This document shows positions 1,364 through 18,646 of a stretch of 64,000 nt of DNA, piece by piece. Within the stretch, counting starts at the first letter, position 1; each line of letters starts with the position of its first letter. The notes under the pieces are model-generated. The model had not been told where the DNA came from. It made no database searches and saw only the letters and a program-made list of their open reading frames with translations. A program made the position numbers and the translations under genes. The stretch spans positions 1 through 64,000 of the forward strand of contig CAKMXJ010000005.1 in assembly GCA_928724745.1 (NCBI GenBank), given 5' to 3'. This DNA is from Anthracocystis setariae (taxonomy: Eukaryota > Basidiomycota > Ustilaginomycetes > Ustilaginales > Ustilaginaceae).

Positions 1364-1366
1364 GAA

Positions 1367-1785
1367 ATCATACCGAGGGAATTAATTCATTCGGAATGCA
1401 GCCCGAGGCAATCGGTGAGATTCGAAAAATTAAAAAATTGCGCCCGAGGGGATCGGAAAGATCGGGATTTTTCAAATCGCGCCCGAGGCAATTCAATTGA
1501 TCGGGATTTTCAAAGCTGCGCTCGAGGGGGTCGGAATGACTGAATTGATCACGGGAAGAGAGGTCACGCACGGAAATCATACCGAGGGAATTAATTCATT
1601 CGGAATGCAGCCCGAGGCAATCGGTGAGATTCGAAAAATTAAAAAATTGCGCCCGAGGGGATCGGAAAGATCGGGATTTTTCAAATCGCGCCCGAGGCAA
1701 TTCAATTGATCGGGATTTTCAAAGCTGCGCTCGAGGGGGTCGGAATGACTGAATTGATCACGGGAAGAGAGGTCACACACGGAAT
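1367..1785. repeat. Two tandem copies of a 209-bp unit
   Basis: The sequence starting at 1367 (GAAATCATACCGAGGG) repeats almost exactly at 1576. The unit is rich in CCCGAGG and TCGG motifs, like the rest of module A. It lies downstream of the Zn2Cys6 gene. Open frames across it repeat in register with the unit and are not taken as genes. Confidence 0.9.
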
Positions 1786-1847
1786 TTTTTCTAAGTCACT
1801 CGGGCACACACAGAAAATTCAAAGGGAAAAATTTTTGATTCGGATTT

Positions 1848-2627
1848 TTAGTCGTCCTCGTCGGAAAGCTCGGATTCCGACTCGGACTCCTCGGGCTCCT
1901 CGGGCTGCTCGGGAAGCTCCATTTCCACCACGGGATACTCGGGAAGCCTCTTGCAGGCATCGGATTCCAGCTGGTGAACACCGAGAATACCGTTGTACTT
2001 CTTGATCTTGATGTTCACATCCCGAGCCAGTCTGGCAACAACCCGAAGCCGGTTGATGAGCTCGGGACGCAGCGTGTTCACGTACTCCTTTCCGTGCTCG
2101 GGATCCACGAAAGCCAAGTCGAAACGAGTACTCACAGGGGTCGGGAATTTTCGTTTCTTGCTCGGGCTGCTTTCCGAGGCACCCGAGGCTTTCGGACGCT
2201 TCGGGGACATCGGAATCTTCGGGTTGGCATCGAGCCACGCTTGGCAGCGTTTCCGAAGCTCGGGATCTTCGGAAAGGAGACCTTGGGAAATCCGAGGGTC
2301 GGGCGACACGGGAAGCCACTCGGACTCGGGTTTTCCCTCGTTCTTGTGCTTCAGGCGGTCCAAGTAGATGTCGCGGAGGAGGAGACCGTTCTCGGTCTCA
2401 ATGTTGAATCCAGGCACTTCGGGAAAAAAAAAAAAAAGCTCGGTCAGTACGGGATACACGGAATGAGCTCGGACTGTGAAAGAAGACTTGTACTTACTGC
2501 GCATTGAGTGATTGCATCGGGAATTCCCTTCCGAGCACTTTTGACACTTTTCCGAGGTGTCGGAGGTGAGGATGCACTCAAGCTTGTCCTTGAGGCATCG
2601 GAAACACTTGTGAGTGACGACGGGCAT
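1848..2627 (-). CDS. Zn(II)2Cys6-type DNA-binding protein, two exons (module A)
   Basis: The N-terminus has six cysteines spaced C-x2-C-x6-C-x9-C-x2-C-x6-C (CFRC...C...CQKC...C). This is the spacing of the fungal Gal4-type binuclear zinc cluster, a family that typically binds CGG triplets. A basic/Ser-Pro stretch follows (PKRP...SPSKKRK, a likely nuclear signal), and the C-terminus is strongly acidic. Start: the ATG at 2627; the open frame extends a few codons upstream without an ATG. An 81-nt intron is strongly suggested at 2497-2417: donor GTAAGT, branch-like TACTGAC, 14-T tract, acceptor GAAG. It is frame-neutral and stop-free, giving 232 residues spliced or 259 unspliced. The gene sits in DNA loaded with TCGG, i.e. 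CGG half-sites, suggesting it binds its own module. No regulatory middle domain is visible, so this may not be a classical activator. Confidence 0.75.
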   Translation of the reverse strand: MPVVTHKCFRCLKDKLECILTSDTSEKCQKCSEGNSRCNHSMRSKYKSSFTVRAHSVYPVLTELFFFFPEVPGFNIETENGLLLRDIYLDRLKHKNEGKPESEWLPVSPDPRISQGLLSEDPELRKRCQAWLDANPKIPMSPKRPKASGASESSPSKKRKFPTPVSTRFDLAFVDPEHGKEYVNTLRPELINRLRVVARLARDVNIKIKKYNGILGVHQLESDACKRLPEYPVVEMELPEQPEEPEESESESELSDEDD

Positions 2628-2649
2628 TACAGGAGGATCGGAAAACAAA

Positions 2650-3440
2650 AAAGAGGAGGGTCGGAAAGCTCGGTAAGTGACGGAAAGGTCGGAAAATGAG
2701 GGTCGGAATCGAAGAACACGTTGGCAGTGAGAAGTAGGAAGGAAAGAAGTCAGAGTAACAGTTGAAAAAAATGTACCCCGAGCTAAGATCCGAATTCCGA
2801 CCGAAAAGCTTCCCGAGGTTGAAAAAGTGCTTCCCGAGGTTAATGAAGTGCTTCCCGTGTTTCTCGAGTATCTCGGGAACTCGGAAAATAAAAACCCGCG
2901 CCCGAATATCTCGGTGAGATCATAAAAAATAAAATATCGATTCCGAGGGGATCGGGGAGGTCGGAAATTCGAAAACTGATCCCGAGAAAATCGAAGAGTT
3001 CGGAATTTTGAAAATTAATCCCGAGGTGGATCGATAAGATCGGAAATTTCGACACTGATCCCGAGAGGATTGGGGAGTTCGGAAATTCGAAAATTGATCC
3101 CGAGGCTAATCGGTAAGATCGGAAATTCCAAAATTGATCTCGAGGTGTATCGGTAAGATCGGAATAATTAAAATTGATCCCGAGGGGATCGGGGAGTTCG
3201 GAAATTCGAAAATTGATCCCGAGGTTGATCGGTAAGATCGGAAATTCCAAATTTGATCTCGAGGTGTATCGGTAAGATCGGAATAATTAAAATTGATCCC
3301 GAGGGGTTCGGGGAGTTCGGAAATTCGAAAATCGATCCCGAGGTGGATTGGTAAGGTCGGAAACACGGAAAATATCCTCAGAATGCTCGGAAAGCTCGAA
3401 CAGCATCGGGATAGCTCGGGAAGCTCGGGAAGCTCGGAAA
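2650..3440. repeat. Spacer tandem array: ~39-bp unit, 119-bp higher-order period
   Basis: GATCCCGAGG / GATCGG / GGAAATTC blocks recur about every 39-40 bp. A higher-order period of 119 bp is visible: the unit TTGATCTCGAGGTGTATCGG begins at 3134 and again at 3253. The array fills the 874-bp gap between the P1 stop codon and the Zn2Cys6 start, so it forms the upstream region of the Zn2Cys6 gene. It also has clustered TCGGGAAGC repeats near 3410-3450. Confidence 0.8.
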
Positions 3441-3501
3441 GCTCGGAAAAAAAGACGGCTCCCGCGAGGCTCAGAGACCCAACCCTCAGTGCTCAACCAA
3501 G

Positions 3502-5469
3502 CTAGTCATTCCGAGGCACCGACCCAACCATGTTCCCCCGAAGGAAGGGCATCCTGTCTAAGGGCATGACCACCATGATTCCGAATTTACCGAGATCCAC
3601 GGGATAGTTTCCGTGGCTGAGCAGATCCCCGAGGTATGCCAGTGTCTCACTGTGATTCAACCGAGCTCCGCAGGTGTTGCACCGAAGCATCCACCTCTGC
3701 TTCCCGCCTACCGAGTGATACCGAGTGTCTCGGTTCACATTCCGGCAGTCCCGACACGGAAAATACAACCGAATGTGATTCCAAATTTCCCGAGGATCGA
3801 CCGACCTCGGAATGATCACCCGTACCCGTCCCGAGGGGTTGGCTGTGTTTGTCAAAGTGACCGAGGCTCCCGTGGGCTTCCGAAGCCACCAAGCATATGC
3901 ATTGTTCCACCGAGTGAGTGCCCGATAGCCAGGGTTCCACCCGAGGCTGTTGAGAGCATCTGCTGTGATGCGCCGAGCTAATTCCGTGGTTTCCAAGGTG
4001 TTTCTTGCATGTAGCACCGAGTGTCCCGAGGCAGCAGCATGCATTTCCCGAGCATTCCGAAGCATTTCCGAGACTCGTACTGTATAGAGTCGGAGCTGAA
4101 GGCCTCGGGACCACGGTCGCTCGGCATGCATATAAGTCGGAAGCGAAAGGTACGGGATGCCTTGGATTGACTTCACAGCCTCGGAAAGGGTGGCACCCCG
4201 AACCGAGACCTCCATCCGAAGCCCCCCGAGCATCTCGGGAGGCACGGAAGCCAGATCTTCCACCAACCGACGCACCGAGGTCAGTCTTTTCCGAACTGTT
4301 TTCATGCTCCGAGGTTCCGACCTTGCCATCTTGCTGTTGAATGCCTTGAGAGCATGAACTAGCCTCGGGTAGATCTTCAGCTGCATTCCGTACCCCTCGG
4401 GATGCCTGAGCTGCATGTCTACTCCTCCGAAGCCCCTCCCGAGGGGGGTCAGCATCGGGAAGCTTCGGTTTGGCTTGTTCGGGGTTCGGAATGCGACCAT
4501 CCATATGTCTGCACTGTCATAGCTGACCCCGAGGTCCCATCGGTTTGTTCCCGAGAGCGGGTGCTCGGGATTGGCTGGTTCCGTGTACACTCCCGAGAGT
4601 GCAAGCTTCATTCCGTACGCCTGGATGCGCACCGAGTCACATCCGACCTTCCCGAGTGCTTGAATGAGCATTCCGATGGTTACCGTGGGGCAACCCGCGG
4701 AAAATGCGATTCCGAACTGGTTTGGTTGTATACTGAGGTGCTGCTGCAGAGCCTGAACCATCGGAAACTTGAACCGAGGCTCAATCTTCAGGTACCCAAC
4801 CCCTTGGGCCAAGTACACCCAGTCTCGGTACTTTCCGTGGTCTCGGATGATTGGGTACGGGGCTCGGGATACCAACCGAACCAATGTGATGCTTCTTCCG
4901 TGGATCCGAGCCAGGTCCGAGGGGTATACCGTGATATTCCAAGCATCAACATCCTCGGGACCATCCTTCCCGAGCTTGTCCAAGGTCGGGATTTCGGCAC
5001 CAGGCTCGGTAAGTGGATTAGATGCATCGGGTAGGTCGGGTGCTGGTAGAGCTTCGGTCACCACCTCTTCATCACCTTCCGTCCACTCGGGATGCTCGGG
5101 ATGCTCGGGATCCTCGAGATGCTCGGGATGCTCGGGATGCTCGGTTTGCTCGGCAACCTCCATGGCCTCCTCTTCATTCTCTTCGGGATGGTCGGAATAG
5201 TCGGTGTCATACGGATTGTCCGGTGGCTCGGGGATAGGCTCCTCGGGTGGGGTCGGTAACCTCGGAAATTCGGTGTTGGGAATCAGCACAACAACCGAGG
5301 GCTCGGTGGGCTCGGGTGATTCGGAGGGGACATTCCGTGGGTCGGAACGTTTTTTCGGAGGCTTGCGCTTCTTCGGGGGCCTTCGGGGTTTGGTGACAAC
5401 AAGCTTTGGGATGTTTGAGCTTACCTTGACTCGGGCTTTGAATCGGGGACTTTTCCGTAGCTTTGGCAT
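3502..5469 (-). CDS. P1: subtelomeric zinc-ribbon protein of unknown function (module A)
   Basis: A 655-residue protein starting MPKLRKSPRF. Order of parts: basic, Lys/Pro-rich N-terminus (KPRRPPKKRKPPKKR, likely nuclear); acidic stretch with a His-Pro-Glu repeat (about residues 105-130); globular core (about 175-560); C-terminal CxxC...CxxC zinc ribbon (CRDC near 571, CNTC near 597). The core and ribbon align with P2 (10179-12677) block by block: DWVYLA/DWVYFA, EPRFKFP/EPRFKLP, GCDSVRIQAYG/GCESVRMAAYG, GRGFGGVDMQ/GRGFGSVELQ, GWNPG/GWHPG, AWW. I recognise no named domain and see no recombinase or polymerase motif. P1 stops about 160 residues earlier than P2. Single exon. A TATA-like box lies about 110 bp upstream. 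Coding DNA carries the module's TCGG/CCGA motif throughout. Nucleic-acid binding is inferred from the ribbon and basic tail. Confidence 0.8.
   Translation of the reverse strand: MPKLRKSPRFKARVKVSSNIPKLVVTKPRRPPKKRKPPKKRSDPRNVPSESPEPTEPSVVVLIPNTEFPRLPTPPEEPIPEPPDNPYDTDYSDHPEENEEEAMEVAEQTEHPEHPEHLEDPEHPEHPEWTEGDEEVVTEALPAPDLPDASNPLTEPGAEIPTLDKLGKDGPEDVDAWNITVYPSDLARIHGRSITLVRLVSRAPYPIIRDHGKYRDWVYLAQGVGYLKIEPRFKFPMVQALQQHLSIQPNQFGIAFSAGCPTVTIGMLIQALGKVGCDSVRIQAYGMKLALSGVYTEPANPEHPLSGTNRWDLGVSYDSADIWMVAFRTPNKPNRSFPMLTPLGRGFGGVDMQLRHPEGYGMQLKIYPRLVHALKAFNSKMARSEPRSMKTVRKRLTSVRRLVEDLASVPPEMLGGLRMEVSVRGATLSEAVKSIQGIPYLSLPTYMHAERPWSRGLQLRLYTVRVSEMLRNAREMHAAASGHSVLHARNTLETTELARRITADALNSLGWNPGYRALTRWNNAYAWWLRKPTGASVTLTNTANPSGRVRVIIPRSVDPREIWNHIRLYFPCRDCRNVNRDTRYHSVGGKQRWMLRCNTCGARLNHSETLAYLGDLLSHGNYPVDLGKFGIMVVMPLDRMPFLRGNMVGSVPRND
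5087..5150. repeat. In-frame 9-bp repeat inside P1
   Basis: TCGGGATGC units repeat in tandem and encode His-Pro-Glu (HPE) on the minus strand. The module motif has expanded into a coding microsatellite. Confidence 0.9.
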
Positions 5470-5579
5470 GATCGGGAGGCTCGGGAGGCTCGGGAGGCTC
5501 GGGATGTTCGGAATAAGGGGGTCAGTAACCTCGGAATGGATGGTTCCGTTAGAGTTAGGGTTGAAATGAAATGGGTCTG

Positions 5580-5588
5580 TATTTATAT
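5580..5588 (-). promoter_or_regulatory. TATA-like box of P1
   Basis: On the minus strand this reads ATATAAATA, about 110 bp upstream of the P1 start codon. The interval between contains four TCGGGAGGC repeats (5473-5510) and a degenerate telomere-like TTAGAGTTAGGG (5549-5560, opposite orientation to the chromosome end). Confidence 0.45.
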
Positions 5589-5659
5589 GTTTTTGCCTCT
5601 GTGTGAAATCTGAGTCAGACGCATTGCCGAGGCAACACCGTGTTGTCCCGTGCTTCCCG

Positions 5660-6050
5660 AGGTGCTACTATGGTCAGACCAAGCTACCCTAACCCCCCGT
5701 GCCTCCCGTGCCTGCCCGTGGAATGTCTGAAATTTTCAAACTGGGCCCTGGCTTCCGAGCACATTCCCGTGCTCAGGCCAAGCTACCCGTGCCTCCCGTG
5801 CCTGTCCGTGGAATTTCTGAAATTTTCAAATTGAGCCCTGGCTTCCGAGCACATTCCCGTGCTCAGGCCAAGCTACCCGTGCCTCCCGTGCCTGTCCGTG
5901 GAATTTCTGAAATTTTCAAATTGAGCCCTGGCTTCCGAGCACATTCCCGTGCTCAGGCTAAGCTACCCGTGCCTCCCGTGCCTGCCCGTGGAATTTCCGA
6001 AATTCCGAAATTGGACCCTGGATACGGAACGCGTTTCCGTGCTTCCCGTG
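5660..6050. repeat. 90-bp tandem repeat array upstream of P1
   Basis: The unit containing ACATTCCCGTGCTCAGGC begins at 5761, 5851 and 5941, an exact 90-bp period, with partial units on both sides. It is rich in CCCGTG and CTTCCGAGC. The period is a multiple of three, so an open frame with a 30-residue repeat runs through it; I regard that as a by-product. The array lies upstream of the minus-strand P1 gene. Confidence 0.9.
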
Positions 6051-6119
6051 GCCATTCCCGTGCCTTCCGATCCTGCCGACCATTTCCGAGGGTCGGGAAC
6101 CTTGGGGAAGTATATAGTC

Positions 6120-6926
6120 AACTCGACTCGTCACAGGTGGCCCCTAGCCATCTTCCTGTGCTCTGTTCTCTTTCCCATCCTTCCTCGCCAGACCATGCAG
6201 CAACACGAGCCAAGTCTTGATCGGTATGCTGGCAGTTCAAATGTTGCTATGCAACCCTAAGGCAAGCCATCACACAAGAGGACCGCCATAGAAGCTTCGT
6301 TGCCCGCTTCAAAAAAGCTCGCTTGCCAAGGCACGCAGCTACCATCCTCGTCTTCCAAACACGCCGTTCTCAGTGCTCTTTGGCGACACCGGATGTGTTC
6401 GATCAACGTCATCGACACAATCCGACACCGCAAAAAAGCGAGGATTTTGGACGTTCTTGAACATGTTAGATTGCGTTGAGTAACACGTTCTGCATTGCAA
6501 AAAAAAGCGGAAATTTTCCGACATTTCCAGATTTGTTAGATTGTGCCAATTAACACAATCTGTCATTGCAAAAAACCAAAAAAATTTTCCGACACGGAAA
6601 CTCGGAAAATTACCTCGGGGAGCTCGGAATGCGTCGGAATAGCTCGGGAAGCTCGGGAAGCTCGGGATCCTCCATGAGTCAAACTTGACTCCCCATCTGC
6701 GGCCCCTACGCTGCAGCTACTGCACCAAGCCTTTGCATGACAAAGTGTACCCATATAGTGCACACACTGACCCCAAGCAGCCCCCAAAGTTTGGCTTGCT
6801 CACCGTCGCCACCAGCCAACATGTACGCGCAGACATACATTTACGTCAACTACGCCCGCTACGGTGCAGCCACCGTGCCTGGTGTTTGTGTTCCCAAGTC
6901 TATCTATATACTGCACAAACTGACAT
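6120..6926. repeat. Subtelomeric non-coding stretch with palindromic units
   Basis: Near 6400-6590 a unit of about 75 bp recurs: GTTAGATTG, a short spacer, CACAATCT, then CATTGCAAAAAA. The best copy has a perfect inverted repeat AGATTGTG/CACAATCT around 6538-6562. A related copy lies at about 704-742. From 6593 to 6675 the TCGG motif returns. At 6690-6926 there is a diverged copy of the unit at 6927-7104. No gene seen. Confidence 0.6.
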
Positions 6927-7104
6927 AAAAAAACCCCCAGGGTTTTGCTTCCTCATCGACGCCCCCAGCCAAAGTGTACGCGTGGACCTACGTTTACGTA
7001 ATTTCGCAAAAAAGTATGCAAACGATTTCGCCAAAATTTTCTGATCACAATCTACAAGAAGAGAGCTTTCCAACGGTACCAAATGATCACCATAACTCAC
7101 AAAG
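6927..7104. repeat. Right copy of the ~180-bp direct repeat flanking module A
   Basis: Nearly identical to 1136-1314 and in the same orientation. It marks the proximal boundary between module A and module B. Confidence 0.85.
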
Positions 7105-8050
7105 GATACCCCTATGTAAGTTCAAGCAGATGTACGCTGCCAGCATCAAACACATGGCACTGATCCTGCTACAGGGCAGGAGACACACGTGCAGACACGC
7201 ATGCACAGAACAGAACTGTAGGAGTCATTGGTTAATTGGTGCTCCTACACAAAGGGCAGATAGAAAAGCAGACGGAAGGATCCACTCCGGTAGACAAAGG
7301 AAGATGGAGGCATTGGCTCTGGTGGACAAAGGGAGATGGTGGTAGTGCCGGCAAAGTGTTTTGCGGTGAGCTGTCACACAGAACAGCATCAGGAGACAAA
7401 GGTATGTTTGGAGTTTGCCGCTAACAAAGAAACTTGACTGTGCAGTGAAAAATTGCTAACCTGGCATAGTGGGCAGCGTCACAGTCCTCCAGAATTTCCT
7501 GGCGTGTCTCCTGCAGCCAGAATCTATAGTCTCTTGCTCTGCATCCCACGCTCAAATACCTTTTGTCTCCCCAACCGCAGCTTCCATCCACACTGCACCA
7601 CTGTCTCCTGCGCACAAACTCTGTTGTCTCCCATGCTCAAGCATCTTTGTCTCTCACTCTGCTACCTGATTGGCGTGTGTGCATGTCCTAGCATTGAGTG
7701 AACCAACGCCAAGGTTGCAGCTGCTGCAGTGAGTGTCTCCTGCCTTTGTCTCCCGTCTCCTGTCCCTGCTCTCCTGTCCGCTGCTCCTGCCCTCTTTCAT
7801 GAGTGTGAAAAGTTGAATTTGTCCGCTGAGCACTTCAGCAGTCTGGCCAAACACGTGAACCACCCAACCAATTTCTGCCAATTTTGACGCGTCTCCCAGG
7901 GTCCAACCTGCCGCTCAGCCAAAAAATATTTGATTCTCCTGCGGCACTTGAGCAGTGTAATTTGGCTTGTCTCCTGGGGGTGGGAGACAAGACGCGTCAG
8001 GTCAATTTGGCAGGGGAGATTTGTCTCCCGCCAGCCATTGGGGACAACCG
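7105..8050. other. Module B flank rich in TTGTCTC/GGAGACAA, no gene
   Basis: About a dozen copies of GTCTCC, TTGTCTC or GAGACAA are scattered here, for example near 7176, 7392, 7504, 7561, 7622, 7648, 7733-7770, 7968, 7986 and 8019. Short open frames exist but show no protein-like composition or family resemblance. This is the 3' side of the dioxygenase gene. Confidence 0.55.
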
Positions 8051-8064
8051 CCTAGGGCTAGGGA

Positions 8065-8345
8065 GGGGGACTTGTCTCTCAGATTCAAAAAGTAGATCGA
8101 AGAGACAAGTCCCCCACTGTGCTGTGCTGCCTGAAAAATATTTCAAAGCAATTTGGCTTCGAACTTCTAGGAAAGGGGGACTTGTCTCTCCAAGCAAAAA
8201 TCTGATTCTCAGAGACACATCCCCCTACTGTGCTGTGCTGCCTGAAAAATAATTTCAAGCAATTTGGCTTCGAACTTCTGGCAAAGGGGGACTTGTCTCT
8301 CCAAGCAAAAATCTGAATCTCAGAGACACGTCCCCCACTGTGCTG
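8065..8345. repeat. Three ~110-bp inverted-repeat units 3' of the dioxygenase gene
   Basis: GGGGGACTTGTCTCT starts at 8065, 8175 and 8286 (110-111-bp period). Each is followed about 40 bp later by its complement AGAGACA[AC][GA]TCCCCC, so each unit can fold into a stem of about 15 bp. Each ends in ACTGTGCTGTGCTGCCT. Confidence 0.9.
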
Positions 8346-8430
8346 TGCTGCCTTGGAAAAAATCAAGCAAATTGTCAATTTTGTCAAGAAACAATCTCGT
8401 GCCAAAATTCTCAACAACTTGCAGCTGCTA

Positions 8431-9450
8431 CTATTTCTGAGACTCGCCGAAGATATCATTCAGCCTCTTCTGGCTGATGCTACATACATGCTCTTTCAAG
8501 TAAATGGATTCTCGAAAGAAAGAACTGAATGCCCATCTATCATGCTTCAAGATGGAAAGATCAAAAGGTGATGTTCTGTGGTAGAAAGATTGAGAGTTGA
8601 GGATGACCAAGTCGAGAGGCTCAATAAGCACCTTCACCAAGAACTCGGGTAGTTCCAGCCAAGCCGCTTCGCCAAAGTTGAACAGAAAAGAGGGAATACA
8701 GTCATCCTTGTCAAGATGGACACCACCAGACTCTGGGAAGTTCGAGAAGAGTGCAATAGTTGTGCTCCAGGGGTGAAGTAGCTTGATGCTTTGCTTTCCA
8801 AAGATCGAGATCAACCAGTCCATACCAGATTGTCGAGAGCCAATGTTGCCAGTGAAGCTGGGATGAATCAGAGTGTTTGCTTTCGAAAAGGCTAGGGTGG
8901 TATGTCGACATGCCCAGTTCAGTAAGTCCAGAGCTTCATCTTTGTATCGATAGTTGGTGGTCTCCTTAGTAAAGTCAAGTGTGTTCCTGCCTCGAGAATG
9001 CCAGATGCCTAGATGGTGTTCAACTACTCTTCGCTTGGTAGTCAGTTGACTTGAGTTGTAACTGGGGGCTGTTGATGGATTCTTCTTCGAAAGATACTGG
9101 TCATAGTGTGCTTTGCCTTCGAGAGCACTTTTCTGCAGTTTGAGCTTGACAGCATAGCTTGTTGGTCTGATCCTTTGAAGAATGACTTGATGGCTGCCTG
9201 TATCCATAAGGGTGACGTTGCATCGAACTGTTTGGTCTGTTTGTGAGTGATACTGAGCATTGCCGACCTCTACATACTGGATACCTTCGAATTGGGTGGG
9301 TTCCTCTGGGTTTGTGATTGTGTGCTTTTGTTCTAGCTGAATAGTCTCGTGATTGTGCTGCATGAAGCAATATTGATGTCGTCTGGCTGCTGCTTTGATG
9401 TTGTCATTGTGTCTCTTTTGATCCAACACTGGTTGAGAAGTTGAAGGCAT
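8431..9450 (-). CDS. TET/JBP-like 2-oxoglutarate/Fe(II) dioxygenase (module B)
   Basis: 339 residues from the ATG at 9450 (MPSTSQPVLDQ); the frame is open further upstream but has no ATG. The C-terminal half shows the order of the double-stranded beta-helix dioxygenase core: HxD iron ligands in GGVHLDKDD (H245, D247), a short FNFGEAAWLELPEF segment, LDLVILNSQSFYHR with the second His ligand (H291), and RWAFSSFF with the 2-oxoglutarate-binding Arg (R305). This resembles the TET/JBP oxygenases that are expanded in basidiomycetes, often next to transposons, and that oxidise 5-methylcytosine or thymine in DNA. Substrate here is inference; AlkB-like or another 2OG family cannot be excluded. Single exon. 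CpGs within the gene fall mostly in TCGA contexts. The gene is bracketed by TTGTCTC inverted-repeat arrays. Confidence 0.7.
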   Translation of the reverse strand: MPSTSQPVLDQKRHNDNIKAAARRHQYCFMQHNHETIQLEQKHTITNPEEPTQFEGIQYVEVGNAQYHSQTDQTVRCNVTLMDTGSHQVILQRIRPTSYAVKLKLQKSALEGKAHYDQYLSKKNPSTAPSYNSSQLTTKRRVVEHHLGIWHSRGRNTLDFTKETTNYRYKDEALDLLNWACRHTTLAFSKANTLIHPSFTGNIGSRQSGMDWLISIFGKQSIKLLHPWSTTIALFSNFPESGGVHLDKDDCIPSFLFNFGEAAWLELPEFLVKVLIEPLDLVILNSQSFYHRTSPFDLSILKHDRWAFSSFFRESIYLKEHVCSISQKRLNDIFGESQK

Positions 9451-9496
9451 GGCGGATATGATGATGTGAGAAAAAGACACGTAGAAATCATGACAA

Positions 9497-9668
9497 GGGG
9501 CGTTGTCTCTGACTCCAAATTTGGCTGGGAAATTTGGCTGGAAACTCAAAGGCAGAGACAACGCCCCCAACTAGATCTGCAACGAAGCTCCCAGCAAGGG
9601 GCGTTGTCTCTGATCATGCTTGTTCCACTATTTTTCTCTGCCAACTAGATAGTACCAGGCAACGCCCC
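9497..9668. repeat. Inverted-repeat pair upstream of the dioxygenase gene
   Basis: GGGGCGTTGTCTCTG at 9497 pairs with CAGAGACAACGCCCC at 9553-9567. A second GGGGCGTTGTCTCTG at 9598 pairs with a shorter GGCAACGCCCC at 9657-9667. Same core as the downstream array (TTGTCTC) but a different arm (GGGGCG instead of GGGGGAC). It lies just upstream of the start codon on the promoter side, so it may be an operator-like site. Confidence 0.85.
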
Positions 9669-10178
9669 TTTTTGGACTTGCCATTTTGCACTTTGGCAGA
9701 CGTTCTTACCACAAACCGTGCTGTCTGTATGGGATATTCATCAAGCATATCCTGCAATGTCTCATCATAGCCTGAAAGTGAATTAGAAGGCAAGCAGAAC
9801 GCACTTTTGTTCACAGAAATTGGTTGAGCGTAGACTGTGTGGCAGCATTTCAAAGGCGACGTGAGTTTAAGTGGCCAAAATGGGCAGATAAAGTAGCGTT
9901 GCCTTTGAAATTCAACAGAGCCGTAACAGCTGGACCAATTGTCATTGTGTTTACACCAATGCATTCAGCTTGTGATTCTCTACACTGTACAGTGATCAAC
10001 TGGTCCAGCAGTCCACTCTGGCATGCCATCGATACAGTTCAAAAGCAACATTGGTCAAAAGGCCCAAATCTGGGGTTTTTCACACATCACCTTCAAACCG
10101 CAATTGCTGGTGCACAACTCAGTGTTTTGCTGTCATTCTTGTACCGTTATGCTTCTGATGATATTCTTTATGCTACGC
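9669..10178. other. Intergenic stretch between dioxygenase gene and P2
   Basis: About 510 bp with no recognisable gene, no module B motif and no tandem structure. It is the upstream side of the dioxygenase gene and the 3' side of P2. Open frames on the plus strand running from here into P2 are antisense shadows. Confidence 0.5.
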
Positions 10179-12677
10179 TCAAATTTGCTGGGTCAGAATC
10201 TCGTATCCATTGCTGTCCATCTTCACCAGCCCAAAGTAGGGACCACGTCCACCTACAGGAATCATCTGGCATGAGTAAGACCGCCGTAACAGATGCAGAT
10301 GCACAATGTGGATATCAAATGCACCCGCTACACCATGCAGAAGTACTATTTCTTCCTCATTTGTCAACTCTGCATGCCGTGTGCCAATCTTTTCCAAACA
10401 GACCGCTACTGCTGGTAGACTCTGTGTACCAAGATGATCCTGCACTGCCTGTGGGTGCCGTTGCAGCCATTCCACAGCCTGCTCTCTTATGTCTACTGGA
10501 TCTGGGTTGCCACGTCTCTCCTCCAGCAATGCAGTCAGACACTCCAGCATGGATTCCTGCATATCTGCATATTCACGGGTCCTTGCCAGCAGAGTCAGGT
10601 CTCTCCGCTGACTGAGTCTGATCAGTGCTGTCTCTTCTGGGACTGTAACAAAGATCAAAGCTGCAAGGTCAACCACAAGTGACTCCAAGCTCACACCCAG
10701 TTGCCGGTTCACCACCAAAGTGGCTATGTGTGTACGGAACCGCTGTGCACTGAGTTGGTTCCTACACTGGCTGCACCGGAGTCGAAACTGACTGGCTCCT
10801 CCTGACAGAGTATATGTGCCAACAAGGTGACAGCCTTGACACCGCAAGTGCAGCTGGATGTGCGTAAACAGCTGTCTGCACTTGACAGCAGTACTGAAAT
10901 GCTCAAGCCGCTGTGCTACGTCCAGTGTTGCTTGACTTGACTTCCACCATGCAGTGGGACTGTCTAGCGGTGTGGGCCTTCTGCCTGGATGCCAACCCAT
11001 TGCATTATAGAGGTCCACCACCATCTGCCGCTGTACCTGTGTAGACGGCTTGCTGTGGTTGCCACGTGCAATCTGTTTCTGTTCCACTACAGTCAGCAGT
11101 GCCTCCACATCTGCAAATACATCTCTGTGCTGCACCGTGTGTGTGAGCAGCTGCTGATCTCCTGCTGCCTCTGTGAACAGAAAGCTGGGATCCAGATACC
11201 GGCTAGCATCGGCTGCTTTCTGTGCATCTGCAAGCGTAGGTGCTGTGACTGTCACTTCCAGACGTAACCCTGTACCAAGGCTGGGATCTGCAGCCAGCAT
11301 ACGCTCCTTCCATCCTTTCAGTGTGATGATGCGGTCCTTCACTGCTTTCACAATCATTGGTTGACCAGCCTGGCCTGCACGCATTGCACTGGCCTTGAGC
11401 AGATGCGTAAACACAGAATACCCTTTGAAATGGGAAATTCCATCTGCACGCCGCTTCCACTGCAGCTCCACACTGCCAAAGCCCCTGCCAACGCGTAGCA
11501 TACTGGGATATTGCTTGTATTTTCCCTTTTTAGACTTGGGTGCAAGCAGACTGATGTGATGCGTGTCCACCCTGACTCCAACATCAAACACATTGAGTGC
11601 ACGCATTGGATGCTGGCTCAGCATGGCTGGATCCATGAACCGGTCTATAGGTGTCTTGAAACCGTATGCTGCCATGCGTACACTCTCACAGCCAATTTCC
11701 TGCAACGCTTCCACCACAATACCAACATCCATCCTCAGCTCACCAAAGGTGACTGACAGTGGGTAGTGAGACGGTATCACAACTGATTGTTGAGGTGGTT
11801 GCTGAAGGTGTGCGATGAAAGGAAGCTTGAAGCGTGGTTCAAACCGCAAGACCACCTTGAGCTCTGCAAAATAGACCCAGTCCTTGAATGCATCAAGGTC
11901 TTTGAAGTCTGGTACACATCCAATCAAAGACAAAATTGCACCAGGAGGATATACGCGTAATAGATCAGCTGGAAAAATGGTGACTGCAAAAGAGTCTACA
12001 TCTCTGGCCAGCTCCGTATCCCAGTCATGTACTGGTGACAGGTCAGGAATGGGTCCCAGTGCTGGAAGCTCTGGTACAGCCATATCCATCAGCATAGCTG
12101 GACCACTGCTGCTTTCTTCCTCTGTTACGGTGGGCAGCAACACTACAATGCCATCCTCTGGCATGTTGTCAATGTCCTGATTTGGGTCGGTGTCTGGCTG
12201 AAGCGGTGCTGGGTCAGGCTCTGCTGACAGAGGCAGATAGGGGAGTGTGTCTCCATCCTCTGACTCTGCTGCTCCGTCTGTGATTGCTGAGAGTGCTGGA
12301 GAGGGAGTGCAGTCTGCTGGCACCTCAGCCCAGGTTGGAATTTCCTGAATTTCAGGCACTGGGCAAGAAGACGCATCTGGCAGGAAATTACCCTGAAATT
12401 CCAAGTCCAGTTCAGGGTTGAGCCTTGGTGGCAGTGGCTCTGCCTCTGGCTGAGCCACAACTGACTGACTCTGTCCGCTCTGGCATTTTCTGATCCCCTG
12501 GTGCGTCTTCAGAGCAGTGACATTCAACACCACCTGACCGCAGCTGCAGGCAACCAGACCAACTGCTGCTGCTGCTTCCTGACTGACCTGCTCACCACGA
12601 TGTGCCTTGCGGATGTGGTTGGTGATGTTGGTTGCTGCATAGCTGAATGAACAGACTGGACAGCTGATTTGTGCCAT
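10179..12677 (-). CDS. P2: paralogue of P1 with C2H2-like fingers and C-terminal extension (module C)
   Basis: 832 residues from the ATG at 12677 (MAQISCPVC). Two zinc-finger-like units lie at the N-terminus: CPVC-x12-H-x3-H, and a degenerate CSC...H...C unit. An acidic Pro/Ser linker follows. The core (about residues 235-600) and CxxC...CxxC ribbon (CQGC near 610, CSQC near 637) match P1 in order and spacing. Beyond the ribbon P2 has about 160 residues that P1 lacks, ending PYFGLVKMDSNGYEIL. That tail faintly recalls an OTU-fold peptidase without its catalytic Cys and His. Coding DNA is CpG-poor and rich in CTG/CAG, quite unlike P1. The fingers may replace the DNA-binding role that module A assigns to a separate Zn2Cys6 gene (inference). 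Function unknown. Confidence 0.8.
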   Translation of the reverse strand: MAQISCPVCSFSYAATNITNHIRKAHRGEQVSQEAAAAVGLVACSCGQVVLNVTALKTHQGIRKCQSGQSQSVVAQPEAEPLPPRLNPELDLEFQGNFLPDASSCPVPEIQEIPTWAEVPADCTPSPALSAITDGAAESEDGDTLPYLPLSAEPDPAPLQPDTDPNQDIDNMPEDGIVVLLPTVTEEESSSGPAMLMDMAVPELPALGPIPDLSPVHDWDTELARDVDSFAVTIFPADLLRVYPPGAILSLIGCVPDFKDLDAFKDWVYFAELKVVLRFEPRFKLPFIAHLQQPPQQSVVIPSHYPLSVTFGELRMDVGIVVEALQEIGCESVRMAAYGFKTPIDRFMDPAMLSQHPMRALNVFDVGVRVDTHHISLLAPKSKKGKYKQYPSMLRVGRGFGSVELQWKRRADGISHFKGYSVFTHLLKASAMRAGQAGQPMIVKAVKDRIITLKGWKERMLAADPSLGTGLRLEVTVTAPTLADAQKAADASRYLDPSFLFTEAAGDQQLLTHTVQHRDVFADVEALLTVVEQKQIARGNHSKPSTQVQRQMVVDLYNAMGWHPGRRPTPLDSPTAWWKSSQATLDVAQRLEHFSTAVKCRQLFTHIQLHLRCQGCHLVGTYTLSGGASQFRLRCSQCRNQLSAQRFRTHIATLVVNRQLGVSLESLVVDLAALIFVTVPEETALIRLSQRRDLTLLARTREYADMQESMLECLTALLEERRGNPDPVDIREQAVEWLQRHPQAVQDHLGTQSLPAVAVCLEKIGTRHAELTNEEEIVLLHGVAGAFDIHIVHLHLLRRSYSCQMIPVGGRGPYFGLVKMDSNGYEILTQQI

Positions 12678-12738
12678 GGTGAGTGAGTGAGTGAAGGTGC
12701 TGAAGGAGCACCGCACTGGCTGGCTTGGATTTGTAGTT

Positions 12739-12877
12739 GACTGTCCCTCCAGTTGAAGTAGACCGTCCCTTGGCTTGAAGGAGACTGTCCTTCCATTTGA
12801 AATGGACCGTTCCTCCTTTGTATCAGACCGTCCTTGAATTTTCTTTGAAATTCACGCAAAATTGTAATAGACCGTCC
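12739..12877. repeat. 22-bp-phased GAC[CT]GTCC array upstream of P2
   Basis: GACYGTCC cores begin at 12739, 12761, 12783, 12805 (GACCGTTCC), 12826 and 12870. Spacings are 22, 22, 22, 21 and 44 bp, i.e. about two helical turns, putting every site on one face of the DNA. Linkers share TTTGAA/TTGAAG. The array lies 60-200 bp upstream of the P2 start codon, the usual place for protein-binding sites. A related array is at the chromosome tip (80-185). Confidence 0.85.
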
Positions 12878-12969
12878 TCTGGCTGAATACAGACGCATCA
12901 AATTTCTGAATTTCTTTTTGAATTCACCAGACCCTTTCTGGCCAGCCCAAGCCTTTGACGTGACTGGAA

Positions 12970-12981
12970 CCCTAACCCTAA
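12970..12981. repeat. Short interstitial telomere tract at the copia breakpoint
   Basis: Two CCCTAA units sit exactly between module C and the broken end of the copia polyprotein. Orientation matches the chromosome end. This fits a broken copia end healed by telomere addition, then capped by module C. Confidence 0.85.
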
Positions 12982-12982
12982 G

Positions 12983-15900
12983 TGTTTTGGCGAAGATTAA
13001 GATGTCGTCGACGTACAGGGTTAAGATGATGGGTTGATCTTCAACACGCGGGCCCGCGTGTTTGAAGTAGAGGGCGGAGTCATGTTCACTGCGCTTAAAT
13101 CCCATTTCCCGGAGCGTGATGTCGGCCTTGTGGTACCATGTCCGACCTGCTTGCTTAAGTCCATAAAGCGACTTATTTAGCTTGCACACTTGACCTTGCG
13201 GGGTTCCTTGAGACTCTTCGATTGTGGGGGGTGGCCTCATGTATAAGTCTACGTCGATCTCCCCGTTTAAGTAGGCTGTGGCCACGTCCATTTGGTAGAT
13301 ACTCCATCCCATTTGTAATGAGATGATCATGAGTAATCGCAATGTGGACAGTTTTACTACCGGAGCGAAGGTCTCGTTGTAATCAATGCCATGCTTTTGA
13401 GCAAAGCCTTGTGCTACAAGACGAGCCTTGTACTTATCTATCGAACCGTCGGACTTGCATTTTACTTTGAAAACCCATCTGCTCCCAATGATGTTGGCCC
13501 CGCTAGGTGGCGTTACCAGATGCCATGTGTCGTTCTTGCTGTGAGAGTTGAGTTCTTTATTGATAGCCTCCTTCCATAGCGACCAGTCTGGGCGTTGAGA
13601 GGCTTGCTTGATTGTTTGAGGTTTGTTGTCGAGTAATCCAACGATGTCTGGTTCGTCAACACGCAATGTCGCGTGCTCCAACTCATCATTGAATTCTTGA
13701 ATTGCGAGGGCTTGCAGACGCGGCAACGTTGGTGGGGAACCTGGCGGGGTTGTCAGCCCTTGTTCTCTCTCTTGTTTGGTGAGGTACGGCCACCTGCTAA
13801 GGCCGCCATTGTTCCCTTCGTCATTTCCTTGATTTGGAGCCTGTGTGAGCGGGGTAGGCTGTTGTTCCAAACTCCAGACGTCGCGTGTTGGCAATCCAAG
13901 ATGTTTTTTGGGAGATCCCTTATAAGGAAAAGATTCTTCATCGAAAGTTGCATGTGCTTGTGTAAGGTACCTCTTTTCAGCTGGATTGTACAGCTTATAG
14001 GCTTTAGTTCCTGCCGCAATTCCTAGGTAGACGCACGAGACAGCTCTGTCATCAAGTGCGGACCTCCTCTCCGCTGGAATGTGAGCGTACGCTGCACAGC
14101 CAAAGGTTTGTACGAGAGAGAGGTCTGGCGTCTTGTCGTACAAGACTTTGATCGGGATCTTGTCGCCATTGCCTTTCGTCGGTAGTCTATTGTTCAAGTA
14201 GGTCGCATGAAGCAAAGCGTCGCCCCATAGTGTGTCAGGAGCATGGGATTGTATCAACAAGCAACGTACAGTGTTGAATAACGTCCTGTTCATCCTTTCC
14301 GCAACGCCGTTTTGCTCAGGTGCAAACGGGGAGGTGAACTCATGCAAGATTCCGTGGGAAGTGAGGAAGGTATTCATTTCTGTGCTTGTGTATTCCCCTC
14401 CATTATCGGATCTGAGCCTTTTGAGTGGGTATCCGGTTTGCTTCTCCATGGTCGTCTTATATTCCTGAAGGCAGCCGAACACCTCACTCTTGCAAGTGAT
14501 CAGGTATACCATCGTGTGTCGAGAAAAGTTGTCAATGAATGTGACCGCGTACTTGTATCCTTGAGGAGTTTCGGTGGGAATTGGTCCCTTGACGTCTGTG
14601 TGGATTAATCCAAGTGGGTGTTCAACACGCGACGTTGCGTGCTTGAACGACTGCTTGTGGGACTTGGCAATCTCGCAAGTCTCGCAAAGTTGATGATTTT
14701 TCTTTGCACTCAACGTGATTGCTGGAACTTCTCTTGCAATTTCTTCTAGGCGACGTTCTCCAGGGTGGCCAAGACGCTTGTGCCATCGATCAGGTTCTGC
14801 CTTGTGTTCTGCGGCTAGCCCTGCGAAGTCAACACCTGCTTGATCAACGTACGTGAGCGGCCCAATGTGTACACCCCTGCAAGTGATGCGGCCACTCTTT
14901 GTCCTTGCTATGGTCTCTTTATTGTTGGTGGTGATCTCCGCCTTCTTCCTCATCACTCCTGTGGATAGGAGGTTGACATTGAAGGATGGGATGTAAGCGA
15001 CGTTCGTTAGCATGATCTTGTTGACGTCTCCTTGTCCGACGTTGACATCTAGGTGTACCGTCCCGACGCCCTCTACCTGGACGGGTACGTTGTTGGCCAC
15101 CCAGATAGGCTTCATTGACACACCTGTACGGAGGTCTGTGAAAAGAGAACGATTGCAACAGATATGCCTGCTGGCTCCTGAGTCCATGAGCCACATGGTT
15201 GAACATGGATGGGTAAACTCGCTAGCGGAGTAGGCGTTTTCGTTGTTGGCGTTGCCGTCTTTCACGCAGCCTTGCGTGTTCTCTTGCTTCGTTTTCTTTG
15301 GACACTTGTTTTGGTAATGTCCCTTTTCGTTGCAATTGAAGCAAGTTATTTCTTCGATGGGAGTTCTTTTTCTACGACGTTGCGTGTTTGGCCTCTTTGT
15401 TTTCTTTCCATTGCTGGCGAAATAGGCTGACTGGTTTTGCTTTGTTTGTTGGTCCAGACCGTGTGAGTGGAGTCCGAGGCGTAGTTCTTTGCCACGCAAC
15501 CTTGTGACTATGGAGTCAAACTCCACTTTCTCGTCAATGTGTGCTTTTGCCATCATGAACCTCTCGTTTTCATCCCCTTTGCGGTGGATGATCATCTGAG
15601 TTTGTTCACGGCAAGCTCTGTACGTTTCCATGATTTGCAACGCAATGTTCTCGTACTCCTTTTGTAGTCCCTTCATGAGGATGCTGTATTTCTTGTGATG
15701 GCTTATGTCATAGCCTGCCAACGTCAGTTGTTCAGCAAGCTGCTTGATTCTGCCAACAAAGCCGTCGATGGTCCGTTTTTCTTGTCTGAGACTGTTGAAC
15801 TCGGTCTCCATTTCCTCGAGTTGCCATCGCATCGACTTGGCAAATCGGTCTTTGAGGGTGATCCAGATGGTCCTGGCATCCTCGAGATTGCTGATCGTGT

Positions 15901-16306
15901 GCTTTATGTCAATTGACATGCAGCTTCGAAGCATTCCGCATGCTGTGAGGTCGGCGTTGAGCCATTCCATGTATGTGGGGTTGGACTCTGGAGGCTTGGG
16001 GAAGATCCCCTTGATGATTCCATAGATGCGGATGCCCTTTTGCATGAGTACATCTATAGTTCTGTCCTTCCACATGTAGTAATCCTTCGCTTGCTCGAGT
16101 TTTGGCAAGTGAAGTTTCGTTTGGTCAATCTCCATACCCATCGTAAACGCAACGTTGCGGGTTTGTACTGCAGGGGATGGAGTTAGAGATAGGGTAGATT
16201 CTTCGTCGTCTCCACTGGGTGTTCCAGTAATCGAATCGGAGCGACGGGTTCGCAATCGGGTTCCTTTGTAGCTACCTTCCGAGTTTACAGTAGGCTTTGG
16301 GCTCAT
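12983..16306 (-). pseudogene. Copia gag-pol polyprotein, 3'-truncated
   Basis: Start MSPKPTVNSE at 16306. Order: Gag core with UBN2-like sequence; CCHC knuckle CFNCNEKGHYQNKC (near residue 320); aspartic protease WLMDSGASRH (near 375); integrase with HHCC zinc region and D-D-E core (HTDVKGP, SDNGGEY, PEQNGVAERMN); then RT with RWVFKVK, QMDVATAYLNG and YVDDILIFAKT. The order protease-integrase-RT is diagnostic of copia. The frame is intact and stop-free up to the breakpoint, so loss of the 3' part looks recent. Past 12983 the frame reads through telomere repeat and module C DNA to 12524, giving a meaningless tail. The palindromes encode recurring HA-x-x-RV peptides (HATLRVDE, HATSRVEH, HAGPRVED). 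Confidence 0.92.
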
Positions 16307-17340
16307 AACCTATTAGATTCTGCAAACGTCTAATCACTGTGGTGTGGTGGGCAGACGTTCGAGTGTGATTGCAAACACGCAAGGGCGCGTGTTTGCCGCG
16401 TCCCTTGATTCACTTCAAGCAGCGATCTTGGAAGTGCGTTTGGAATCACTAAGTTAATTGTCAACCCCTTTTGGCGATAAAGCCAACGAGAGCGAAGTGA
16501 GATTGACCGCACTCGTCTGAGTGGGCGCTGTAGGCTAGGAAGCTTGGTAGGTTACCACGTGAGAGACAAACACGCAAGCCTGCGTGTTGGTGTACTTGGT
16601 TGGGTGTTTAGGAACACACTTAGTTAGTTGATGATTCGATGATATTTCAATCACTGTGGGGTGTCTTGCGGCCTCTATATATACATGTGACGCTGATTCT
16701 CAAATACGGCTAAGTGACTACTCTTGTCGCTGTAGCCGTACTTCATGACGTTCCATGTCGACTGAGATTGTGCTTCCACACACGCAATCTTGCATGTATC
16801 CTCGCCATTCCGGGACTTTTCCTTGACGGTCCATTAGTAGCTTTCCTCTGGTTTGTTTGGGGCAACGTTGTCCGCAAGTGGGGTTCACCCTTGATTATGA
16901 GGGTGGCCCATCGTGACCCTCAAGTGTTGTTTGTATTGTGGGCTCCATCGTGAGATGATTGGTTGATCGTGTAAAGGGTGACCGCGAGTTGTCTTCTTGA
17001 CACTCGGCGTCGCGTGTGACTGGTCCAGCTTGACTTGATGTACGCGGCATGGCGTTTCGAGGGTTTACCCCTATTTTCCAAGTGCGGGTTTGCTTATTAT
17101 TTCCCGTTATAACGCGCGCGCGTTGTTTTCGTGATTTATTTCTTGTGTCTGAACACGCAAGCCTGCGTGTTAAGCGCCGGTAAATGAAATACTCTAAGTG
17201 CGAGATGACTCCTGGATCCGTATGATCCAACATGTTGTGTGCCGATATGTGATGTGCCCAATTGCGAGATGAAAAGCTGATTCGTACGACGAATCCAACA
17301 CCTCTCTTAGAAACCGTTGGCTTCTTTTTAGGAGGGGCAG
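16307..17340 (-). other. Copia 5' leader with palindromes
   Basis: About 1 kb between the candidate LTR and the gag start. It holds several ACACGCAAG...GCGTGTT palindromes, an alternating CG tract (17111-17124) and TATATATA near 16675. No gene. A tRNA primer site could not be assigned. Confidence 0.5.
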
Positions 17341-17525
17341 TGTTACGCCAATGCGTAACCTCTTGCACAAGACATTATTGTGCGAGCCCATTCACATGCC
17401 TTCGGCATGTAGAACGCATGTAGTTATGCGCAGCTGGCCTGTATATAGACTCACATTGCCGTTCATCCCTTCTTAGCAATCATCATCTTGTTATCGTATG
17501 CCACCGAGTGTGTGTACGTGTAACA
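17341..17525 (-). repeat. Candidate copia 5' LTR
   Basis: 185 bp beginning TGTTACGC and ending GTGTAACA, i.e. with TGTTAC/GTAACA inverted ends as in LTRs. It contains a TATATA stretch near 17441 and a hairpin CATGCCTTCGGCATG (17395-17409). The 3' LTR is missing, so the boundary cannot be confirmed by comparison. A run of 15 C follows at 17543-17557. Confidence 0.5.
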
Positions 17526-18646
17526 TCCTGTCTCCTCTCGCACCCCCCCCCCCCCCCAACCACATTTTCAGGCTATGGAAGCAGTCGATCCCATGAGCTT
17601 CGCAACTCAAGTTCTCGGACTCCTTTTCACATCCCAACCTCAAGAGCTAGAAGGGTTATAACGGCCGCTTAATATTGATTGCTGCGGTGCCATTCATCTT
17701 GGTTGACAACCACTTTCTCAAGGCCAATGAGCTTGGGAACTTTTTGCCGTTGAGTCCATCAACATTATGATGTTGTGGAGCTTGGATGTCAAATTGTCGA
17801 ATAACAGAGGCAGGACCGTACAATGAAACAGCGTAAGCCGTGTGACAATCTGTCGAACAGCGTCAGAATCTAATTCCATGCTCGTTCGTGTGCTGGGCTG
17901 ATAGTGATGGGGACACACTTGTGAGGCTCGATTTGAGCGTTGCAGGTCAGCCTTGGCAAGATCATACGCAATCTCAGAAGCAAAAGAAGCGCTTGACGAG
18001 CCGAAGATCGTTTGCCGGCCCATCGAAGACTGTTCAATCTTCCGCCTGTCCGTTTCCGTTGCCATGCATCTGAACATTGTACTGAAAAAAGTGATTCAGT
18101 GCTGTCGGCTGCCTCAGATGTGGGGTTTGGATCGGTTTCTGCACCAGACGAGAGCCACAACTGAGAGTGATGAATGTACTGACCTGTCCCCACCTTTTAC
18201 AATGCGGGGGATTCAGGATTCAACGTGACCCGTACGTCAGTCTCCTTACTCCGCTTTTCGTCAGCTAGTCGACCCCGTATGGGATCCGCCGTCCCAGAGC
18301 CACACTACAGCTTCAGCCATGCCGTCTCACTACACCTCTCTAGTAGTTTGGTGAGGGTGGACAGACGCGACCGACTCATTCACACCAACGAGGACGTTGT
18401 CGCCACCACTGCGGTCGAGGACATGATGAATTGCAGAGCTCAAGGCGAGGCTGACGGTGGTGCGCTGTGGTGCCTGGCCTGGCCTCTCTCTCTCTCTCTC
18501 TGGCGGCTTACAACATGATCGGTCTTGTTGCAGTCAGTGTCGATGCAGTATTAAGATGAAGATGAAGCTGAACTGAAGCTGAAATGGGTATATTGCAAGT
18601 GCGATTGTATAAAAATAATGTGGATGCATGCGGGGGAAAGTGTGTT
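17526..18646. other. Transition from subtelomere to chromosome arm, no clear gene
   Basis: A poly-C run (17543-17557), then about 1.1 kb with short overlapping open frames on both strands but no family resemblance. A TC microsatellite lies near 18485-18500. Possible gene relics around 17720-18200 cannot be identified. Confidence 0.4.

Follow-up and report, generated by a model that had tools for sequence, protein, structure and literature searches.

Helically phased short words fill subtelomeric modules of Anthracocystis setariae, protein-coding DNA included

Why should a single four-letter word fill several kilobases of a chromosome end, genes included? The question is raised by the left end of a contig of the smut-like fungus Anthracocystis setariae (Ustilaginaceae; assembly GCA_928724745.1, contig CAKMXJ010000005.1, here C5; genome 21.5 Mb in 36 contigs). 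The analysed window comprises the first 64,000 nucleotides of C5, and CCCTAA repeats lie close to its left end. In a preliminary description the neighbouring modules A, B and C and a copia element were each credited with a private short word in coding and noncoding DNA, and a fungal cis-marking system similar to that of the VANC proteins was considered possible. Here we examined the words, their spacing and their relatives elsewhere in the genome. Module A, which carries the word TCGG/CCGA, has the following features (positions are those of the window).

1364..6665, no strand: module A (subfamily S1), filled with TCGG/CCGA at about 45 sites/kb, sparse at 6250-6500, phased at about 10.0 bp (word counts, phasing).
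1848..2627, minus strand: small Zn2Cys6-like open reading frame (ORF) with C-x2-C-x6-C-x9-C-x2-C-x6-C at 2514-2606; 38 TCGG/CCGA in 1848-2636, period 9.9 (cysteine pattern).
3505..5469, minus strand: P1, 655 amino acids, member of the subtelomeric core family with C-terminal zinc-ribbon-like CxxC pairs and no OTU tail; 102 TCGG/CCGA (alignment).
5086..5153, no strand: 9-bp TCGG array, in frame within P1, encoding HPE repeats (alignment, tandem-repeat scan).

The filling of module A was stronger than first noted. Between 1364 and 6700 the word occurs 238 times, compared with 75.3 expected from dinucleotide shuffles. Both genes and the noncoding DNA take part: by the same shuffles the P1 coding sequence (CDS) has 102 sites versus 26.1, the Zn-cluster ORF 38 versus 12.1, and two noncoding stretches 22 versus 8.8 and 48 versus 19.9. 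Counts per successive kb from window position 1 are 3, 32, 47, 51, 50, 41, 16 and 0. At the right border the word stops abruptly, with nine sites in 6500-6750 and none in 6750-8000, i.e. the sharp change of words claimed for module borders was seen at this edge. Host DNA, for which the window from 18 to 64 kb (46 kb) served as control, has 483 sites or about 10/kb. When the P1 protein was held fixed, synonymous shuffling of its own codons gave 46.6 sites against the observed 102 (z 11.3), and the host-codon null gave 30.2 (z 16.2). A 549-bp part of the Zn-cluster ORF has 30 sites versus 15.5. Thus module A stands well above the dinucleotide and the codon-preserving nulls. The word had been said to disregard the reading frame. 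All three frames of P1 are used, yet unevenly (CCGA 12/11/28, TCGG 16/13/22).

Module A has many relatives. P1 and P2, the core protein of module C, have 69 and 65 matches in the genome, located near contig ends wherever the position of the end is known. The family was sorted by identity into ten subfamilies: S1 (module A), S1b, S2-S6, S7 (P2), S8 and S9. The letters of six S1 loci (L009-L013 and L016, the window's own copy among them), two S1b, four S4, one S5 and one S6 locus were studied, and one to three members of each remaining subfamily were tested. The six S1 loci contain 131-209 TCGG/CCGA sites each, with a period of 9.9-10.0.

The preliminary description did not mention this period. 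Phasing was scored as the mean cosine (R) over site pairs; the nulls were scanned over periods and so allow for the choice of period. In S1b, TCGG distances in the same orientation cluster near 9-10, 19-21, 30-31, 40-42 and 50-52 bp, and none falls at 13-17, 23-26, 35-37 or 45-47 bp. R was 0.60 at 10.2 bp (99% of random placements <0.12, of codon-phase-keeping placements <0.13), and 0.57 at 10.3 bp in the S1b main CDS (99% null 0.19 random, 0.20 codon-phase-keeping). S1 yielded 0.40 at 10.0 bp (99% null 0.10) and the P1 CDS 0.31 at 10.0 bp (99% null 0.14 random, 0.16 codon-phase-keeping). Of 241 same-orientation pairs in S1b which are 8-63 bp apart, 230 deviate from a multiple of 10.2 bp by no more than a quarter turn; half would be expected to do so. 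The corresponding numbers are 112/124 in the S1b main CDS (53/61 for distances that are not multiples of three), 371/456 in S1 and 174/223 in P1; all these counts use a period picked from the same data and are slightly flattering. Phasing is weaker, though above null, in pairs of opposite orientation (S1b 0.23, S1 0.21). A word-blind 4-mer autocorrelation returned 10.0 bp for S1, 10.2 for S1b, 10.6 for S4 and 10.9 for S5, with scores of 4.2-5.6 and 2.6 in one S4 locus. No period of about 10 bp was seen by this measure in S2, S3, S6, the S8 CDS, S9, P2, both dioxygenases, copia or 12 host windows (0.7-1.9). Intermediate scores came from an array upstream of S8 genes (2.7) and from the left flank of module B (2.0). 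At 9.5-9.7 bp, R rose to 0.33-0.41 in some of the 5.3-kb host windows, each with no more than 22-45 pairs; over the complete 46 kb R was 0.09 (392 pairs).

Amphipathic helices give periods of about 10.8 bp in coding DNA, and codon bias or such helices of the encoded protein could in principle yield the period. The S5 CDS (11.0 bp), which is not above its synonymous null, would agree. Synonymous shuffles which keep the protein, however, abolished the period in S1 (z 8.4; 9.3 without the HPE segment), S1b (9.1) and two of three S4 CDS (5.8, 6.3), whereas 13 control CDS (S2, S3 twice, S6, S7, S8, S9, two dioxygenases, copia and three host genes) ranged from -2.1 to 2.0. Furthermore, the periods recur in nine stretches of S1, S1b, S4 and S5 that are noncoding or mixed (z 3.8-40 against 4-mer block shuffles), although the noncoding signal of S1 is partly due to tandem repeats. 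A protein-level origin is therefore hardly credible. Alternatively, no dedicated binding protein may be involved, and the phased words might determine the rotational position of nucleosomes. In nucleosomal DNA the helical repeat is 10.2 bp, exactly the period of S1b, and in-phase coherence at 10.2 bp, 0.70 at first, is down to 0.09 by 400-600 bp, with a return to 0.24 at 1000-2000 bp. Yet the signal consists of a single word with an orientation bias (0.60 for same versus 0.23 for opposite pairs in S1b; 40 orientation runs, 77 expected), the word differs among subfamilies, the periods range from 10.0 to 10.9-11.0 bp, and neither the 12 host windows nor the other family members tested share them. 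Nucleosome positioning as the cause is unlikely.

S1b, located on C11, allows a comparison over evolutionary distance. It is about 65% identical to P1; the main CDS alignment covers 593 residues, 381 of them identical. In aligned columns S1 has 87 TCGG/CCGA sites and S1b 73, of which 42 are common to both. This retention of 0.53 is the second-highest among 37 four-mers (median 0.25). Of the lineage-specific sites 37/45 in S1 and 26/31 in S1b, jointly 63/76, overlap codons with an amino-acid change, a count for which there is no null. In a phase test that includes gap sites (59 in S1, 32 in S1b), lineage-specific sites were in phase with the shared ones (S1b z 3.6-4.5, S1 z 3.0-3.6) and among themselves (S1b z 4.7, S1 z 3.0). 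This indicated that sites were gained in register. In both subfamilies ACGG, too, keeps phase with TCGG (R 0.52, 0.50), which points to CGG as the common core and to WCGG as the site.

Can tandem-repeat slippage and gene conversion have filled the modules as a functionless by-product? Module A has tandem units of 9, 18-21, 40, 90 and 209 bp, many of which contain TCGG, and the 9-bp array has entered P1 in frame. The resulting HPE repeats are missing in the relatives P0001 and L014, i.e. the word array alters the protein. On the other hand, tandem DNA amounts to only 68/1965 bp of P1 by Tandem Repeats Finder, and the S1b main CDS with its 75 sites has no tandem array. The period gains in significance without the HPE segment, the spacings take many values near 10n, and new sites in register require selection or a process that keeps phase. 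Slippage is a distinctly improbable explanation. Neither chance nor codon usage nor simple tandem repetition accounts for the pattern of S1 and S1b.

Other subfamilies appear to use other words. Expectation-maximization (EM) models returned gCTCGGgA for S1 (234 sites), ctTCGGna for S1b (163 sites), AagTTca for S5 (about 230 sites) and TTgAAcntaggT for S4 (about 146 sites). The gain in log-likelihood at width 8 was 137-347 in these four subfamilies compared with 44 in S2 and 58 in host DNA as controls; at width 12 it was 171-457 versus 101 in the host control (an A-rich model). With 12-mer models same-orientation sites had R 0.44 at 10.5 bp in S4 and, with the second-ranked model, 0.35 at 10.9 bp in S5. 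The degenerate word RGTWS occurs at 56-63/kb in one S5 and three S4 loci (22-26 after shuffling) and falls off at the module edges. As the S4/S5 word it was dropped, because its phasing was marginal at most and the 12-mer models were better. Exact four-mers exceeded synonymous shuffles with z 6.7-8.5 in S1 and S1b. No filling word was found in S2, S3 and S6. The expectation that words differ among paralogous modules thus holds for subfamily-specific words, with the reservation that S4 and S5 share one type and that S2, S3 and S6 showed none.

Which protein might read the word? Across the window and loci L001-L066, S1 and S1b alone have the strict Zn2Cys6 cysteine pattern (C-x2-C-x6-C-x5..12-C-x2-C-x6..8-C). 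Their Zn-cluster-like proteins are related to each other, with 35-43% identity over separate pieces and a best E of 8.6e-13. The ORF of module A probably contains an intron near 2430-2505. Exon 1 of the S1b protein matched Pfam Zn_clus with E 0.0026 and 18.3 bits, under the cut-off of 21, and a genome-wide Zn_clus scan with 84 matches did not include the S1 and S1b clusters. Zn2Cys6 proteins typically read CGG, and GAL4 and LEU3 are such CGG binders. Linkage and plausibility thus suggest that the word WCGG fits a putative Zn2Cys6 reader. In S5, a Cys-rich ORF with nonstandard cysteine spacing lies upstream in divergent orientation; its other matches in the genome are at C19:20581, C36:655207 (42%, about 1.6 kb from S4 genes) and C25:20107 (43%).

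The observed-to-expected CpG ratio is 0.99 in host DNA (46 kb) and 0.93 in copia; it is 0.41 in S2, 0.08 in S3, 0.25 in S4, 0.13 in S5, 0.48 in S6, 0.35 (P2) and 0.42 (module B) in S7, 0.45 in S8 and 0.40 in S9. S1 reaches 1.06 (0.62 outside the word) and S1b 0.77 (0.30 outside the word). TpG+CpA is at 1.26-1.67 in subtelomeric modules versus 1.17 in the host. Of the remaining CpGs, 154/216 in S1b and 14/26 in S5 are within TCGG/CCGA. DNA_methylase matches exist at three places in the genome. The depletion in all subfamilies except S1 suggests a methylation-like pressure, and a methylation conflict around the subtelomeric modules is plausible from their composition. The reader might also repress, the arrays recruiting silencing or anchoring the chromosome end as a host-serving, telomere-linked mark. 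Phased modules do lie near contig ends and their relatives are CpG-depleted; but word CpGs persist in S1 and S1b and several copies have open frames, which fits expressed modules somewhat better. No repressor domain turned up, though none was specifically sought. We consider a repressive mark quite unlikely.

We propose instead that phased subtelomeric modules, probably selfish, have been selected across all their DNA, CDS included, to carry sites for a small DNA-binding protein from the module itself or from an adjoining ORF. In S1 and S1b the reader would be Zn2Cys6-like and the site WCGG, best TCGG. Whole-turn spacing (10.0-10.3 bp) and single-orientation runs would suit cooperative head-to-tail coating along one face of the DNA. 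Since the words differ between subfamilies (gCTCGGgA in S1, ctTCGGna in S1b, AAGTTC/TTGAAC type in S4/S5), every protein would label modules of its own kind. The chances that the modules are binding arrays for an element-linked protein, which would serve as coat and self-mark, appear about even. The likely use would be to prevent closure or methylation of the module's chromatin within a silenced subtelomere; for such an anti-silencing role we rate the chances as less than even. Possibly, though this is doubtful, a second code lies over the genes, in which a self-encoded protein polymerizes along its element as self-mark and chromatin shield, and protein and word co-evolve with a pitch for each lineage (10.0, 10.2, about 10.5 and about 10.9 bp).

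Several points weigh against the proposed binding array. The accessory ORFs of S1 and S5 have no Pfam Zn_clus match; the five PDB matches of the S1 segment, all GAL4 or LEU3, have E values of 0.1-2.2, and the S5 Cys-rich ORF lies about 0.5 kb beyond the word-filled stretch. The predicted model of the P1 core has a pLDDT of only 39.8. Opposite-orientation pairs in the P1 CDS are not phased. In S4 L062 (z 1.1) and the S5 CDS (z 1.6) the period is not above synonymous shuffles. The S4/S5 word models were picked after several tries, and one S2 control model had R 0.32 on 51 pairs. Exact four-mers in S4/S5 (z 3.7-5.3) contrast little with S2, S3 and S6-S9 (3.1-4.3; for S2, S3, S7 and S9 4.0-4.3), and the filling there rests mainly on a degenerate word. 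Only 4/50 CpGs of S4 are within TCGG/CCGA despite its CpG depletion. Deamination of the CpG in TCGG yields TTGG and TCAG, and both are in phase with TCGG in S1b (R 0.41 and 0.32; TTGG 0.72 in the 3' part; unclear in S1 with 0.13 and 0.21). This suggests decayed motif CpGs, i.e. protection which is partial at best. Finally, the S1 copies are near-identical and S1 and S1b share common descent, which leaves few independent replicates.

The core itself belongs to no recognized family. Twelve diverse core members align, and five of them (L019, L024, L028, L059, L061) carry an OTU protease domain (best Pfam E 9.9e-13; PDB match OTUD5, E 3.5e-9), which P1 lacks; the OTU tail of P2, S8 and S9 looks degenerate. 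The core region had only sub-threshold family matches in Pfam and PHROGs scans. A Rep/HUH-like origin, raised from local motifs, was dropped because the best PHROGs match was E 0.037 in one of the 12 members. P0001 and P0002, both metagenomic, are the only P1 relatives beyond this genome among the matches listed. The frame is open in several S1 and S1b copies and broken in L012, L013 and L016. Locus L060 resembles an S2 member without the N-terminal part.

To the right of module A the window contains the following features.

7393..9610, no strand: 15 TTGTCTC/GAGACAA sites, only in the flanks of the dioxygenase CDS (word count).
8434..9450, minus strand: TET/JBP-like 2-oxoglutarate (2OG)-Fe(II) dioxygenase, 339 amino acids, HxD and downstream H (alignment, predicted fold).
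10182..12677, minus strand: P2, core family S7, with N-terminal C2H2-like fingers (sub-threshold Pfam match) and a degenerate-looking OTU-like tail (Pfam, alignment).
12739..12877, no strand: GACNGTC array upstream of P2, its sites two helical turns apart (21-22 bp) except for one interval of 44 bp, or four turns (word spacing).
12980..17530, minus strand: Ty1/copia element with six ACACGC-N6-GCGTG dyads (pattern count).

Modules B and C, described as separate, are better read as one module of P2 and a TET/JBP-like gene, because a P2-like gene followed by a related dioxygenase on the same strand recurs at the right end of C5 and on C8, C10, C12, C25 and C32. The iron triad H245, D247 and H291 is invariant in 9/9 aligned dioxygenase sequences, and the predicted model of the module B enzyme has the TET/JBP fold. 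In VIA no family outside the 2OG oxygenases was among the matches listed for this model, and Pfam returned no family for any of the nine members at E up to 10. The genome has 23 matches to the dioxygenase family, of which several lie close to contig ends and no fewer than six adjoin P2-like genes; an uncharacterized Ustilago trichophora protein with 50% identity is among eight relatives. As claimed, TTGTCTC/GAGACAA marks the flanks of the gene (15 sites, 0.5 expected). The sites have no regular spacing and none is inside the dioxygenase CDS. Upstream of P2, six GACNGTC-like sites at 12739-12870 bear out the phasing asserted for GACYGTCC. The word is not private, though: it also occurs at the telomere-proximal positions 106, 126 and 173 and, 26-fold in the first 1000 bp and mostly 21 bp apart, in the S8 locus L031; the S9 locus L043 has three scattered sites only. 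Tandem arrays of 21 bp with GACNGTC lie upstream of S8 genes (L031 316-900, L049 744-900), and the one of L031 is open in frame and would encode KTVYYKS-type repeats. The P2 CDS has no filling word and no 10-bp period, and GACNGTC is not among its top words. The palindromes reported through copia were found as the six dyads, in coding and noncoding parts and nowhere else in the window; AACACGC occurs seven times in the CDS versus 1.3 expected. Neither the dioxygenase CDS of the two examined nor that of copia has a 10-bp period beyond synonymous shuffles. The words of B and C are noncoding.

If correct, the proposal implies selection for DNA-protein geometry through CDS, dense enough to shape proteins, as in the HPE repeats and the 63/76 sites at amino-acid differences. 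It would provide a natural experiment on the co-evolution of element-specific readers and words, a question which work on VANC left open, in a fungal genome that is small and permits direct measurement of binding and methylation. In addition, the subtelomeric modules of a smut-like fungus would be tied to CpG decay and to a TET/JBP-like gene.

How do the modules compare with known systems? A narrow search of titles and abstract starts returned no precedent for helically phased sites in connection with coding sequence, transposons or silencing, and none for this smut subtelomeric OTU/zinc-finger family or for Zn2Cys6 self-recognition in subtelomeres. GAL4/LEU3-type regulators act at few paired promoter sites. 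The candidate reader shares their cysteine spacing and the CGG core; here, however, the phased sites number about 150-240 and extend over a whole module. TET/JBP genes have been described on fungal DNA transposons, and the TET/JBP-like gene adjoining P2 would fit such an anti-methylation cargo (PMC12730594). The abstract of that paper names rusts, mushrooms and morels/truffles, and its main text does not contain 'Ustilag' or 'subtelomer' (PMC12730594). The partner here is the P2 core family with no recognized transposase. PATCs of C. elegans have a period of roughly 10 bp, and the modules resemble them in phased sequence over long stretches. Helix-phased sequence is linked to escape from silencing in their case (PMC7725773). 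PATCs consist of A/T clusters and belong to the noncoding DNA of host genes, whereas TCGG is phased within CDS. Here private words run across coding DNA of subtelomeric modules which have a candidate reader of their own. Closest are the VANDAL transposons of Arabidopsis, in which tandem repeats of noncoding DNA contain most of the VANC motifs (PMC5735166). Module A and its paralogs similarly have dense, element-specific short words, distinct for each related family and arrayed in one orientation across an element which encodes the putative reader (PMC5735166). Unlike in VANDALs, the words also fill CDS and are helix-phased, the candidate reader is a fungal Zn2Cys6-like protein with putative motif binding, and no transposase was recognized. 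Pfam scans of 12 core members and three accessory ORFs returned neither a VANC-type protein nor a VANA transposase; no dedicated search was made. Because the words are not confined to noncoding tandem repeats as in VANC targets and differ in composition from PATCs, the system is filed as neither. VANC-like cis-marking is not supported for B and C as originally put, and for the word-filled modules gains support from differing words, phasing, a linked Zn2Cys6-like gene and CpG depletion. By analogy, the best reading of these modules is a VANC-like marking logic which is yet not a VANC.

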